The notes beneath the pieces were generated by a model. It did not search any database. It was not told the origin of the DNA and saw only the letters and a program-made list of their open reading frames with translations. The position numbers and the translations under genes are program-made. Positions 53,341-58,667 of a DNA stretch of 64,000 nt are shown here, piece by piece (the stretch's first letter is position 1; each line of letters opens with the position of its first letter). The DNA lies in NCBI GenBank assembly GCA_017517135.1, contig JAFXAK010000022.1, positions 62,001 through 126,000 of the forward strand, in the 5' to 3' direction. The stretch is from Clostridia bacterium. GTDB taxonomy: Bacteria > Bacillota > Clostridia > Oscillospirales > Acutalibacteraceae.

Positions 53341-54066
53341 TTGAAGTATTCGGTAATGACAGACAAGGGAATAAAAAGAGCAACAAATCAGGACAGTTGT
53401 TTTGTTGAGTGCTTGAATGAGAAGTCGTGCTTTGCCGTTGTTTGTGACGGAATGGGTGGCGGAAACGCGGGGAATATTGCGTCTGATATTGCGGTTAAAA
53501 CAATTTCTCAGCGGGTAAATCTCAGCTGGCGTCAGGATATGAGTATTGCTTCTGCTCAGAATATTCTTACAACTGCCATTGCTGCTGCGAACATATGTGT
53601 TTACGATGAAGCACAGACAAGTGATGCCTTAAGGGGAATGGGTACAACCGTTGTTGCCGCAATTATATTGAACGGCAGACTGGTTATCGCACATGCCGGT
53701 GACAGCAGAGCTTATATTGCCGGAAAAGAACTGAAAAGAATCACAAAAGACCACTCATTGGTTCAGAATATGTTGGATGCGGGTGAGCTTACCGTAACAC
53801 AGGCTGAGCATCATCCGGATAAAAACTATATAACCCGAGCATTGGGAATAGAAGAGCATCTTGAAACTGATTTTACTCAGTGCGATATAGGTGTCGGAGA
53901 AAAGCTTTTATTGTGCTCTGACGGACTTACCAATTTTGTTCCCGAGGATGAGATATTGCGGCTTCTGACACAGTTTCCCACAGAAGATGCAGCACAGCTG
54001 CTTATAAATAAAGCAAATGAAAACGGCGGCGGAGATAATATAACCGCTGTAGTAATAGAAAATTGA
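53341..54066 (+). CDS. prpC: PP2C-type Ser/Thr phosphatase (PrpC/Stp)
   Basis: A 241-residue metal-dependent phosphatase: VCDGMGGGNAG (near 36), HAGDSRAY (near 118), CSDGLTNF (near 195) and GGDNITAVV (near 230). It reverses the kinase encoded directly downstream. It starts with TTG at 53341; no ATG is nearby. Standard prpC-prkC-rsgA order follows. Confidence 0.95.
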   Translation: MKYSVMTDKGIKRATNQDSCFVECLNEKSCFAVVCDGMGGGNAGNIASDIAVKTISQRVNLSWRQDMSIASAQNILTTAIAAANICVYDEAQTSDALRGMGTTVVAAIILNGRLVIAHAGDSRAYIAGKELKRITKDHSLVQNMLDAGELTVTQAEHHPDKNYITRALGIEEHLETDFTQCDIGVGEKLLLCSDGLTNFVPEDEILRLLTQFPTEDAAQLLINKANENGGGDNITAVVIEN

Positions 54067-54084: not shown

Positions 54085-56571
54085 ATGGATAATTATCTTA
54101 ATCAGGTTCTCAGCGACAGATATGAAATCAAAGAGATAATCGGTGTAGGCGGTATGGCTGTTGTTTACAAGGCATATGACCGTTTGGATGACAGAATTGT
54201 TGCTGTCAAGATTCTTAAAGACGAATATCTTGCAAACGAAGAATTCAGACGACGCTTCAAGAATGAATCAAAAGCCATAGCAGTTCTTTCGCATCCGAAT
54301 ATTGTAAAGGTATATGATGTCAGCTTCGGAGAGACGCTGCAGTATATTGTTATGGAGCATGTTGAGGGTATAACCTTAAAGGAATATATCCAGAGACAGA
54401 AGGCTGTGGATTGGAAAGAGGCTATTCACTTTGTGATCCAGATTCTCAGAGCTTTGCAGCACGCTCACGATAAGGGTATTATTCACAGAGACATAAAGCC
54501 TCAGAATATTCTTATTCTGCCTAATGCATCCATTAAGGTTACCGATTTCGGTATCGCAAGATTCAACAGAGGAGAAATCCGTTCTGTTGTTGACAGCGGT
54601 GCTATCGGTTCTGTTCATTATGTAAGTCCCGAGCAGGCAAGAGGGGATTATACAGATGAAAAATCAGATATTTATTCTGTGGGTGTTGTTATTTATGAAA
54701 TGCTCACGGGTAAACTGCCCTTCGATTCGGATAATGACGATTCTGTTGTTCTTATGCAGATGCAGCAGGATGCAGAAAAGCCCAGCGCAATCAATCCCTC
54801 TATCCCCCTGGGACTTGAACAGATAACCCTGAGAGCAATGCAGAAAAATCCTGCCGACAGATATCAGTCTGCAGCGGAATTTCTGCTTGATCTTGATGAA
54901 TTCAAGCGTAATCCTCTTATAAAGTTTGATTATTCTTATCTTCTGGACAAGAATCCCACGAAGTACATTAATACCGCTGTGTCTCCCGTTCCCTCTTCTC
55001 CCGTAAGAATACTTGAGGAGGACGAGGAAGAGTATGACGAATATGAAGACGATGAAGAAGAAACAAGAAATATGACTCTGCCGATTCTTGCCGGTGTTGC
55101 CATTTCACTTGTTCTTATCGTTGGTGTTATTATACTTTTCGCCTTTGCCGATCCGATAAAGTCTATGTTCGGTGATTCGGGCACCTCTCAGTCACAGGAG
55201 GGAAGCTTTTTGAGCAAGCTTGATATTTTCGGCTGGTTTACGGATGATAAGATTGAAGTCCCCTATTTTGTGAATATGACATTTGAAGAAGCACTCGAAA
55301 AATATCCCGATCTTGTTATAGAAAATCCCCCCCGATATGAATATAATTCCGTTTACGAATACGGAAAAATCTGTTCTCAGATACCTGAAGCCGGTAAAAA
55401 GGTATCAAAGGATACTGTTATAAAGCTTACTGTTGCAACAAGCAGCGAAATGGTGCTTATAAGCGATGTTATCGGACTTAACTATGTTGAAGCGGAAACA
55501 ACCCTTCGAGCACTTGGTCTTAAGGTTGAGCTTGTTGCGGCTACAGATAATTCCGTACCCGAGGGAGAGGTGCTTAATACCGATCCCAGTATCAATACTT
55601 ATATTGAATACCAGGGTACCGTATATGTTTATTATGCAACGGCAAGCAAGGATATTGCTACTGCAAGAGTTCCCAATGTTGTAGGTGACGAGCTTGATAT
55701 AGCAAAAGCAAAAATCGAGGCAGCAGGCCTTAAAGTAGGCGCAACCTATTATGATTCAAGCTCACCGGCTCTGAAGGATTTTGTTATAGGACAGGACCTT
55801 GCAGGCGGAAGCTCGGTAAACCGCGGTGTGTATGTTAACCTTGTTATCGGTAACGGCGTACCGGCATCTGCAACAGCTGATATTACGATTTCGCTTCCGA
55901 ATCTTGAAGGAGCCCCCAAGGCAACCGTCAAAACTTATCTCAATAATAATGCATACGATATTTTCTCAGGTGTCAAGCTTGACGGCTCTGATTATGACCT
56001 GAGCTTTACGGGATCAGGAGAAGAGAACACCTTTAAGATTTATGTTGACACAACCCTGATATACACAGGAACAATCAACTTCAACACAGAGCCTCCCACG
56101 GTGGATAATGTTGTTTCCTATGCTTATGTTGAAAAGAAAACCGTTCCCGATGTTGTAGGGCTTACAAAGGAAGCGGCATTAAAGGCTCTTAACGATGCAG
56201 GCTTTACCAAGGTTACTCAGACAACTCAGTTCAGCGATACCGTTGCTGCAGGAACCGTAATTTCGCAGACTCCCGTATACAGCGAGCTTGCAAAGTATTT
56301 CACAACAACCAATGTTACTGTTGTTATAAGTCTCGGGGCTGAGGATGCAACAGATGTTGATGTGCCTGTAACTCCTGGCGAAACCACAACAAAACCGTCA
56401 GAAGATACTGAGGAAACTACAGCACCCTCAACCCAGGAAACAACAACTGTTCCTCCCGAGGTTGAAAGCACAACCCGTCCGCCTGTTGTTCAGGAAACAA
56501 CAACTGTTTTACAGCAGGAGACAACAACTGCTAACAACTCAGCAAAAGAAACAACAACCAAGGCAGAATAA
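54085..56571 (+). CDS. prkC: Ser/Thr protein kinase PrkC/PknB with PASTA domains
   Basis: An 828-residue membrane kinase. Kinase domain 1-270: Gly loop VGGMAVV, ATP Lys42, HRDIKPQN with Asp136, DFG (154-156). An acidic stretch (311-326) precedes the transmembrane helix (331-354). Outside are three PASTA domains (about 392-606), an Ig-like region (about 612-705), a fourth PASTA (VPDVVGLTKEAALKAL, about 706-775) and a Thr/Glu/Pro tail with ETTT units (776-828). PASTA domains bind muropeptides; the kinase tunes wall synthesis and spore germination in Bacillus. Confidence 0.95.
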   Translation: MDNYLNQVLSDRYEIKEIIGVGGMAVVYKAYDRLDDRIVAVKILKDEYLANEEFRRRFKNESKAIAVLSHPNIVKVYDVSFGETLQYIVMEHVEGITLKEYIQRQKAVDWKEAIHFVIQILRALQHAHDKGIIHRDIKPQNILILPNASIKVTDFGIARFNRGEIRSVVDSGAIGSVHYVSPEQARGDYTDEKSDIYSVGVVIYEMLTGKLPFDSDNDDSVVLMQMQQDAEKPSAINPSIPLGLEQITLRAMQKNPADRYQSAAEFLLDLDEFKRNPLIKFDYSYLLDKNPTKYINTAVSPVPSSPVRILEEDEEEYDEYEDDEEETRNMTLPILAGVAISLVLIVGVIILFAFADPIKSMFGDSGTSQSQEGSFLSKLDIFGWFTDDKIEVPYFVNMTFEEALEKYPDLVIENPPRYEYNSVYEYGKICSQIPEAGKKVSKDTVIKLTVATSSEMVLISDVIGLNYVEAETTLRALGLKVELVAATDNSVPEGEVLNTDPSINTYIEYQGTVYVYYATASKDIATARVPNVVGDELDIAKAKIEAAGLKVGATYYDSSSPALKDFVIGQDLAGGSSVNRGVYVNLVIGNGVPASATADITISLPNLEGAPKATVKTYLNNNAYDIFSGVKLDGSDYDLSFTGSGEENTFKIYVDTTLIYTGTINFNTEPPTVDNVVSYAYVEKKTVPDVVGLTKEAALKALNDAGFTKVTQTTQFSDTVAAGTVISQTPVYSELAKYFTTTNVTVVISLGAEDATDVDVPVTPGETTTKPSEDTEETTAPSTQETTTVPPEVESTTRPPVVQETTTVLQQETTTANNSAKETTTKAE

Positions 56572-56601: not shown

Positions 56602-57483
56602 ATGTTAATAAAAGGAACTATAATCCAATCAATCAGCGGCTTTTACTATATTGAAGCCGCTGATGCGGTTTATGAATGTAAGGCAAGAGGAAGCTTCAGA
56701 AAAAACAATATGTCACCGCTGGTCGGTGATACTGTTGATTTTGAGATGAACGGGGAGAGAGGAACTGTTGTAAAGATTTATGACAGAAAAAATTTCCTTA
56801 TCCGTCCGCCTGTTGCCAATATAGATATTTTATTTATCGTAGCTTCCGCCGATAAGCCGCGTCCTAATTTGTTTATTATTGATAAGCTGACGGCATTTGC
56901 AGTTTATCATAACATAAAGCCCGTTATTGTTTTTTCAAAAACCGATTTGTGCGATGTTTCACAATATGTTGAAATTTACAAAAAGGCAGGTTTTACGGTT
57001 ATTACCTGCTCGGCACAAAACGGAGAGGGCTTTGATGATTTCAAGGAGCTTGTAAACGGCAGAATATGTGCCTTTACGGGAAATTCCGGTGTCGGAAAGT
57101 CCAGTATATTAAATGCCATACTCCCCGAATTACAGCTTGAAACAAATGAGATAAGCGATAAACTGGGACGAGGCAGACATACAACAAGAAGTGTAACTCT
57201 TTATAAGATGCTTGGCGGTTATATTGCCGATACTCCCGGATTTTCGTCTATTGATTTTGAGACTAACGGTGAGAAAATCTTTAAGGATGACCTCCCTGAC
57301 TGTTTTCCCGAGTTCGGTCAGTTTACGGGAAGCTGTAAATTTTCTCTGTCCTGCTCTCATACTGCCGATAAAGGCTGTGCGGTTGTTGAGGCTGTAAAAA
57401 ACGGATTGATACCGTCTGAGCGTCACGAAAGCTACTGTAAAATGTATGAAGAGGTAAAATCCCTGAAAAAATGGGAATTATAA
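56602..57483 (+). CDS. rsgA: Ribosome small subunit-dependent GTPase RsgA
   Basis: A 293-residue circularly permuted GTPase. Order: OB fold at the N-terminus, G4 FSKTDLCD, then G1 GNSGVGKSS, G2 RHTTRSVTLY, G3 DTPG, and a zinc site SCKFSLSCSH...GCAV. It acts in late 30S assembly. The genes rpe and thiN, next in Bacillus, are not present; two very short reading frames follow. Confidence 0.96.
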   Translation: MLIKGTIIQSISGFYYIEAADAVYECKARGSFRKNNMSPLVGDTVDFEMNGERGTVVKIYDRKNFLIRPPVANIDILFIVASADKPRPNLFIIDKLTAFAVYHNIKPVIVFSKTDLCDVSQYVEIYKKAGFTVITCSAQNGEGFDDFKELVNGRICAFTGNSGVGKSSILNAILPELQLETNEISDKLGRGRHTTRSVTLYKMLGGYIADTPGFSSIDFETNGEKIFKDDLPDCFPEFGQFTGSCKFSLSCSHTADKGCAVVEAVKNGLIPSERHESYCKMYEEVKSLKKWEL

Positions 57484-57593
57484 TATTATAAAGATATTCC
57501 GTTGAAAATATCGGCACATTTTTTGGTCCTTGTGCGTATAATTAACCGAGAACTGTTTTTATAAGCAATTAAGCTTGAGTTTGAGGTGTTGGT

Positions 57594-57743
57594 ATGAGGA
57601 GAAGAAAATGTTCCGGCGGATTTGTTTTTGTTGCATTCGGAATAGGTTTATTTTTTGCGTATTGTTTTCCTGCAAAAGCCCTGATTATTGCTCTTGCTGC
57701 AGTGCTTATAGCAACAGGTATTTTTATGATCAAGGGTTGCTGA
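57594..57743 (+). CDS. 49-residue membrane protein of unknown function
   Basis: A short frame from ATG 57594, with GAGGTG about eight bases upstream. The protein starts with the basic MRRRK, followed by two hydrophobic stretches: GGFVFVAFGIGLFFAYCF and ALIIALAAVLIATGIFMI, ending in KGC. Two transmembrane helices with a short Pro-Ala-Lys turn are predicted by eye. Its stop is at 57741-57743 and GGAGGG for the next frame starts right after. I infer a real gene from the ribosome site, composition and operon position; no function is known. Confidence 0.55.
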   Translation: MRRRKCSGGFVFVAFGIGLFFAYCFPAKALIIALAAVLIATGIFMIKGC

Positions 57744-57755
57744 GGAGGGATTCAA

Positions 57756-57821
57756 CTGCGTATTATCGTAATAAACAGTCCTAAATTTTTCAGACCGTTT
57801 TTTAAGATGTTTTGCAAATGA
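57756..57821 (+). CDS. spoVM: SpoVM-like sporulation peptide, CTG start
   Basis: A 21-codon frame after a perfect GGAGGG (57744-57749), starting at CTG 57756. From that codon the peptide reads (M)RIIVINSPKFF..., then a basic, aromatic stretch to Lys21. Ile6, Pro9, Lys10 and Phe11 fall at the same positions as in Bacillus SpoVM (MKFYTIKLPKFL...), where Pro9 is needed to sense membrane curvature. No ATG, GTG or TTG is in frame upstream before a stop at 57741. The place after prkC-rsgA is the same as in Bacillus. It would set the spore coat base on the forespore. Confidence 0.6.
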   Translation: MRIIVINSPKFFRPFFKMFCK

Positions 57822-57872: not shown

Positions 57873-58667
57873 ATGGAAATTAAAAGAATTAAACTGAAAA
57901 CCCTGAAAAACACAAGAGACCTCGGCGGTTTTGTCGGTGCGGATAACAGAAAAATCAAGCCAAAGCGTTTGATAAGAAGCGGTCAGCTCGGAAAAGCGAG
58001 CGATGAAGATATAAAAATTCTTACAGATACTTATAATCTTAAAACAATAGTAGATCTCAGAATGGATGCAGAGGTAAAAGAAGTCCCCGACAAAAAGCCT
58101 GCCGGGGTGGAATATATCCGTTTTCCTCTGCTTGATAACAGCTTTTTAGGTATTGCAAGAGATGAATATTCCCTGCAGTCATGGCTTAAGGTTTTTGAAA
58201 ATTCATCTGCTTCACCCGAAGAGCTTTTCGGTGAAATGTATGTTAAAATATTGATGTCTGACAAAGTTGTGTCTATGGTAGGCGAGTTTTTCGATTTGCT
58301 CATAAATCAGACTGAAGGTTCCGTTCTTTGGCATTGCTCTGCCGGTAAGGACAGAGTAGGCGTTGTTACTGCCTTGGTTTTGTCTGCCCTCGGAGTTGAC
58401 AGAGAAACTATAATCGAAGATTATCTGATGACAGACTATTTTTCACGCTCAGCAAATCTCAAGGCGCATATTTTTTTGCCGTTAAAGATAAAAAACGCGA
58501 AAGTCAGAAAATGTATCTATGTTCTTTTGGGTGTAAAGAGAGAATATATGGAAAATATTTTCAGTATTATAGACAGAGATTACGGCTCAACCGAAAAATT
58601 CTTATCTGAGCGTTTCGGTATAGACGAAGCAAAGATTAATGAGTTAAGAAAAAATTATCTTGAATAA
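57873..58667 (+). CDS. Protein tyrosine/serine phosphatase (Y_phosphatase3 family)
   Basis: A 264-residue phosphatase with the loop WHCSAGKDRVGVV near residue 151, matching the P-loop HCxxGKDRT with catalytic Cys and Arg, and an upstream Asp-rich substrate region starting NTRDLGG. No signal peptide. It may act on phosphotyrosine, phosphoserine or a small molecule. AAGGAGAAAAGG precedes ATG. Confidence 0.9.
   Translation: MEIKRIKLKTLKNTRDLGGFVGADNRKIKPKRLIRSGQLGKASDEDIKILTDTYNLKTIVDLRMDAEVKEVPDKKPAGVEYIRFPLLDNSFLGIARDEYSLQSWLKVFENSSASPEELFGEMYVKILMSDKVVSMVGEFFDLLINQTEGSVLWHCSAGKDRVGVVTALVLSALGVDRETIIEDYLMTDYFSRSANLKAHIFLPLKIKNAKVRKCIYVLLGVKREYMENIFSIIDRDYGSTEKFLSERFGIDEAKINELRKNYLE

Follow-up and report, generated by a model that had tools for sequence, protein, structure and literature searches.

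A short, diverged spoVM gene with a probable CTG start codon downstream of rsgA in a genome of the Acutalibacteraceae

Introduction

The curvature-sensing peptide SpoVM is well known, and in the gene order of Bacillus its gene comes after prpC, prkC, and rsgA. The Bacillus subtilis peptide has 26 residues (PDB 2MVH and 2MVJ), and two reports describe SpoVM as a peptide of fewer than 30 residues with an invariant Pro9 (PMC3533761, PMC5607322). According to PMC3533761, spoVM is rarely recognised in annotation and is found in all bacilli and in some but not all clostridia; the same paper did not settle whether clostridia harbor distant versions that escape standard searches. In Clostridioides difficile, as described in PMC5607322, spoVM lies near rpmB and is cotranscribed downstream of CD25622, which encodes a protein of 50 residues, and insertions in CD25622, probably polar on spoVM, caused essentially the same defects as insertions in spoVM itself. 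In that organism spoVM is under sigma-E control, and spoIVA and sipL are expressed 50- to 100-fold above it (PMC5607322).

Here we report on a window of DNA, meaning the whole analysed stretch of 64,000 nucleotides, in which a preliminary description had proposed a spoVM with a CTG start, whose 21 codons are too few for ordinary gene prediction. According to our analysis, we can say with good confidence that the frame at 57756..57821 is a real, conserved gene, that it is the spoVM of this genome, and that its translation probably starts at CTG. It is a known kind of gene, of which the unusual part is the start codon.

Results

The gene lies on the forward strand at 57756..57821 and consists of 21 sense codons, from CTG at 57756-57758 to the TGA stop at 57819-57821, encoding the peptide (L/M)RIIVINSPKFFRPFFKMFCK. 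The translation of 57756-57821 is LRIIVINSPKFFRPFFKMFCK, and that of the frame from stop to stop is GGIQLRIIVINSPKFFRPFFKMFCK. From the upstream TGA (57741-57743), the frame reads GGA GGG ATT CAA CTG CGT ... AAA TGA and ends at 57821. It had been described as devoid of ATG, GTG, or TTG starts, which is correct as far as useful starts are concerned but not literally, since an ATG, the only one of the frame, is present as codon 18 (57807-57809). We discarded this ATG as a start because only four codons remain from it, the ATT at 57750 because it leaves no spacing to the Shine-Dalgarno sequence, and the ATT and ATC at codons 3 and 4 because residues that align with relatives would be removed. The GGAGGG pointed out earlier is indeed present at 57744-57749, overlapping a perfect AGGAGG (57743..57748, forward strand) that ends 7 nt before CTG and shares a base with the upstream TGA; its predicted duplex energy with the anti-Shine-Dalgarno tail is -14.3 kcal/mol, tied as the eighth strongest of 26 sites in the genus.

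Counted from CTG, the peptide shares with B. subtilis SpoVM the position of Met1, a basic residue 2, Ile6, Pro9, Lys10, and Phe11, so that the alignment proposed for the last four residues agrees with the B. subtilis sequence as checked against PDB 2MVH. Also shared are a basic, amphipathic C-terminal half, a net charge of +5, and a place downstream of rsgA. The two differ in length (21 instead of 26 residues, the five-residue difference already remarked upon), in Pro14 for Gly14, in the FCK end, in the CTG start, and in the 49-codon open reading frame (ORF) that separates rsgA from spoVM here, and their identity is 24% with Met set at residue 1. In length and in Pro9 the peptide fits the published description of SpoVM. 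The computed helical hydrophobic moment of residues 10-21 (KFFRPFFKMFCK) is 0.82, a value reached by none of 2,000 shuffles, while B. subtilis SpoVM gives 0.51, with 143 of 2,000 shuffles as high.

With Met set at the CTG, residues 1-19 align to positions 1-19 of the NCBIfam model NF033436 (SpoVM_broad) with 16.6 bits (E 0.0058), below the curated 31 bits, which is an annotation threshold and not a biological feature. The same model matches 17 of the 24 members of A1, our profile of 24 peptide rows, at E <= 1, the best at 5.1e-10. All frames of the window were also searched with a leave-one-out profile, built from 23 related peptides after removal of the present row and, in each remaining row, of residue 1. 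The spoVM frame reached 43.7 bits (E 3.2e-12 in the window) and the runner-up 10.6 bits; in 20 dinucleotide-shuffled windows, the top frames had 6.4 to 11.4 bits. Since the 23 rows had themselves been found with this peptide as the query, the independent supports, namely SpoVM_broad, synteny, and codon statistics, matter more. A profile search of the PDB with A1 gave no match at E <= 1. A separate, clear spoVM elsewhere in the genome had been named beforehand as evidence that would speak against the candidate, and no convincing second copy was found in the genome by peptide and profile searches. SpoVM_broad gave nothing at E <= 10 over the whole genome, with B. subtilis as the sole control above the cut-off; this search missed even the present copy and therefore cannot count as evidence against a second one. 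Two partial matches in the genome were set aside, one on contig C10 (model positions 11-22, E 0.18, inside a 614-codon frame) and one on contig C16 (model positions 11-21, E 4.3).

When the peptide alone was used as the query, 29 of 60 genomes (this one included) gave a match at E <= 10, among them 21 of the 26 other members of the genus; seven matches fell outside the genus, some of them by chance. With A1, a convincing match (E 4.6e-4 or better) was obtained in 26 of the 27 genus genomes, this one included. The remaining genome, G023 (E 0.32, left out of the count), has a completeness of 74% and shows 35% identity in its best match to rsgA, so that its spoVM locus is probably missing from the assembly. 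The conserved frame with Pro9 that had been suggested as a check in the same interval of relatives is therefore there, intact rather than broken, and colinear with SpoVM_broad from residue 1, which upholds the candidate. Pro9 is kept in 24 of 24 A1 rows, residue 6 varies among I, L, V, W, and F, and a second proline occurs at position 14 in 16 of 24. Beyond the genus, profile matches at E <= 1e-5 were found in at least 216 of 300 family genomes and in 84 of 391 class genomes, with profiles that contain these sequences and counts that contain this genome; the order is considered below. One match to the SpoVM profile (G504:C183:34795-34866) carries an in-frame TAA. The closest named rsgA that we found, in a search that may leave out near records, is 58% identical and belongs to an Oscillospiraceae bacterium.

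In the 26 genus frames, mismatches over codons 2-21 amount to 0.41, 0.28, and 0.64 at the three codon positions, and the in-frame pS and pN, pooled over 325 pairs, are 0.87 and 0.33. Read one or two bases on, the same 26 loci give pS/pN of 0.43/0.46 and 0.31/0.49, respectively, with stops in 26 of 26 loci in the +1 reading and in 14 of 26 in the +2 reading; a control stretch of 63 bases from offset 66 downstream gives 0.75 and 0.71. Substitutions are thus biased toward synonymous ones in this frame, unlike in the other two, which indicates that it is under selection as a protein.

All three neighbors named in the preliminary description were confirmed by Pfam upstream of the gene and serve as syntenic landmarks on the forward strand: prpC, encoding a PP2C phosphatase (53341..54066), prkC, encoding a Ser/Thr kinase with PASTA domains (54085..56571), and rsgA, encoding the ribosome GTPase (56602..57483; RsgA_GTPase, 177.9 bits). 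In the genus, rsgA is found upstream of spoVM in 23 of 26 members, and in the other three (L007, L014, and L022) the contig ends there. Downstream, and outside the unit, a gene for a Y_phosphatase3 family protein (57873..58667, forward strand; Pfam) follows and then a GH43 gene, a setting different from that of C. difficile, where spoVM lies near rpmB (PMC5607322). In L005, L007, and L009, the Y_phosphatase3 gene was not found behind spoVM, and the GH43 gene follows directly.

The ORF between rsgA and spoVM (57594..57743, forward strand; 49 codons) lies directly upstream of spoVM and encodes a hydrophobic, probably membrane-bound peptide, which belongs to no Pfam or NCBIfam family above cut-off. 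All 26 genus members have a match to this peptide immediately before spoVM, with identities of the matched part down to 38% (L011). From the stop of the ORF to spoVM there are 12 nt here and 10 to 17 nt in 24 of the 26 members (this one included), the other two having 32 and 51 nt. Pro9 and a small upstream gene, CD25622, are likewise features of C. difficile spoVM (PMC5607322), the 50-residue CD25622 and the 49-residue peptide being likened here by position and size.

In four congeners (G001, G014, G017, and G022; loci L110, L111, L109, and L108, respectively), the order is rsgA, small hydrophobic ORF, spoVM, a sipL-like gene encoding a SPOCS-domain protein, and spoIVA, which we regard as a coat-basement cluster. 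With Pfam SipL, the SPOCS protein scored 88.1, 80.1, and 61.6 bits in three congeners, and the copy of the fourth, G014, is a SipL homologue according to a homologue search. Among 29 order-level loci (L063-L091, the best-scoring among the matches listed, with 1.5-kb flanks), a SipL-like stretch was present in 13, located by BLAST with identities of 20-27%, either downstream or in divergent orientation, rsgA in 13, and at least one of the two in 22.

Upstream of the small ORF, we detected a promoter-like element on the forward strand (57514..57542; GCACATT, a spacer of 14 nt, and CGTATAAT), which matches the sigma-E consensus at 12 of 15 positions and is a candidate promoter of the two-gene unit. 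Taken alone the element is weak, since 14 of 200 shuffles were as good and a sigma-A reading is nearly as good. We therefore rely on a scan of 25 of the 26 loci, covering at most 200 bases upstream of the small ORF in each (L022 was dropped as too short; L007 and L014 are not bounded by rsgA). The mean best sigma-E score was 11.16 of 15, compared with 10.01 (standard deviation 0.16) in shuffled sequences, none of 500 being as high, and with 10.0 on the reverse strand; scores of at least 12 occurred in 9 of 25 loci, compared with a mean of 1.4 and a maximum of 5 in 200 shuffles. The enrichment z was 7.4 for sigma E, 5.8 for sigma A, 4.1 for sigma K, and 2.0 for sigma G, and kinship among the 25 loci inflates these figures. 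A promoter upstream of the small ORF is likely, and its motif suggests sigma E as the better but not the sole reading; measurements in C. difficile have shown spoVM to be controlled by sigma E and weakly expressed compared with spoIVA and sipL (PMC5607322).

Regarding the partner proteins, a full-length SpoIVA is encoded on another contig of this genome (698.3 bits) and has Gly at residue 486, which in B. subtilis pairs with SpoVM Ile6 (PMC5607322), a residue present in this SpoVM. SpoIVA was found in 23 of the 27 genus genomes, 21 of them over the curated cut-off; every one of the 13 genus genomes with a completeness of 90% or more and a contamination of no more than 5% has it. A homologue search did not find SipL, which partners SpoIVA in clostridia, in this 94% complete genome or in the 97% complete congener G012, although it was found in 21 of 27 genus genomes and in 11 of the 13 best; a Pfam SipL search of the genome is uninformative alone, as none of its controls matched either. 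For this reason our explanation of spoVM stops short of asserting that the organism is able to sporulate.

As for the start codon, the codon at model position 1 in the 26 genus loci is ATG in 16, GTG in 5, TTG in 4, and CTG in this genome only, mostly behind a clear Shine-Dalgarno-like stretch. Among 105 distinct loci taken from the matches listed, a non-random sample enriched for non-ATG starts by the deliberate choice of matches beginning at model position 2 or 3, we counted ATG in 56, GTG in 24, TTG in 21, ATA in 2, CTG in 1, and ATC in 1, while fetched matches beginning at model position 1 had ATG in 53 of 53. On a 24-row rsgA tree, made up of 23 members of the genus including the present one plus an outside row and drawn with seven open forks, parsimony required 6 start codon changes, compared with a mean of 7.7 for shuffled labels, of which 9 of 200 required as few. 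In the near-identical pair G019 (L020) and G021 (L015), the peptides are identical after residue 1, but one gene starts with ATG and its counterpart with TTG. Two SpoVM-like frames from two species of one genus (L105 and L106; genomes G374 and G368) have ATA at the start position and good Shine-Dalgarno sequences; an in-frame GTG lies three codons upstream in L105, overlapping its Shine-Dalgarno sequence, and an in-frame ATG six codons upstream in L106. ATA starts are possible in both. The ATC of L123 was rejected, since it has no good Shine-Dalgarno sequence and the ATG that lies in frame seven codons upstream is the better fit.

Discussion

Conservation, coding signature, synteny, and residue pattern together identify the frame as a short, diverged spoVM that falls under the NCBIfam naming cut-off. 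A chance frame in the spacer between two genes could resemble SpoVM, as its short length and the weak score of the single sequence to the curated model might lead one to think, but this reading is refuted by the conservation, the codon statistics, the synteny, and the leave-one-out score, and we give it practically no credit. Hardly more credible is the idea that ribosomes read through the TGA of the 49-residue protein and so produce the peptide as its tail. In this genome the two ORFs do share a frame, across a gap of 12 nt with no other stop between, which holds for 9 of the 26 genus members, this one included; however, they are out of frame in 16 and in frame with an intervening stop in 1, and the stop codon of the upstream ORF varies among TGA, TAA, and TAG. 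A frame relation that is not kept argues against read-through, which is largely refuted, and for separate initiation. More weight, while still being quite improbable, attaches to the view that the peptide is an amphipathic member of the SpoVM family with another role, for instance in membrane or cortex regulation, instead of being an anchor of SpoIVA. The peptide is short, most A1 rows carry the second proline, residue 6, the SpoIVA-binding residue of B. subtilis SpoVM, is variable among them, and SpoVM of C. difficile is non-essential for encasement by SpoIVA (PMC5607322). Against this stand the retention of SpoIVA with its Gly486 and the four congeners in which spoVM lies two genes before spoIVA.

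The gene might also be a real spoVM whose CTG arose from an error in sequencing or assembly, or from a mutation private to the strain by which the gene is weakened or inactivated, the norm of the species being ATG, TTG, or GTG. The CTG is unique both in the genus and among the 105 distinct loci, and the genome is a draft of 42 contigs with a completeness of 94.17%; on the other hand, the Shine-Dalgarno sequence, its spacing, and the coding frame are intact, a wrong base would need to have fallen exactly on the start codon, and the genus does switch start codons, as the parsimony changes and the pair G019/G021 illustrate. We deem this explanation unlikely. Start codons in 69 bacterial genomes are ATG in 82%, GTG in 14%, and TTG in 4%, and the E. 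coli initiator tRNA is inefficient at starting on CUG, both according to PMC11497404, so that a CTG start should be weak here but not impossible. Most likely, the start codon drifts among NTG forms within the genus, and CTG is one of the states it has taken, not a conserved device. It is plausible that CTG keeps the level of SpoVM low, as had been proposed; since it occurs in one genome of 26, conservation gives no backing to CTG as a regulatory device, and selection for low dosage is unproven. A broader idea would have the small hydrophobic ORF and spoVM as one translationally coupled unit in which the start codon serves as an evolvable dial for the dose of SpoVM, switched repeatedly among ATG, GTG, and TTG and set at its low end by the CTG, usable here through the perfect AGGAGG and a stop 12 nt away. 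We hold this idea as a speculation with some merit and would not favor it at present. Stronger Shine-Dalgarno sequences accompany weaker start codons with p 0.06 in the genus and p 0.03 in 102 NTG-start loci, a sample that is enriched for non-ATG starts and non-independent, which is suggestive only.

In our preferred reading, spoVM is the second gene of a two-gene unit downstream of rsgA, preceded by the gene for the 49-residue hydrophobic peptide. Initiation is inferred to take place at CTG: the codon would be read by the initiator tRNA as formyl-Met, with the help of the well-spaced, perfect AGGAGG and probably of ribosomes finishing the upstream ORF 12 nt earlier, the two ORFs being probably coupled in translation. 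Beyond a kink at Pro9, the resulting 21-mer would fold into a short amphipathic helix with positive charge. On the mother-cell side it would attach to the convex outer membrane of the forespore and, by way of Ile6 and SpoIVA Gly486, anchor SpoIVA, thereby seeding the spore coat. Curvature-guided membrane binding and SpoIVA anchoring are proposed here because they are known from the SpoVM family, and the timing in sporulation, the membrane binding, and the SpoIVA binding are predicted by analogy with it.

These results describe a short, diverged form of SpoVM throughout a genus, with profile matches at E <= 0.001 in at least 186 of 394 sampled genomes of the order, found with profiles that contain these sequences and counted with this genome, and the four congeners tie spoVM, sipL, and spoIVA into one gene cluster. 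No title on a CTG-started spoVM was among the matches listed in our literature search. A gene finder restricted to ATG, GTG, and TTG would drop this spoVM, in which bacterial initiation at CUG can be studied in a natural setting.
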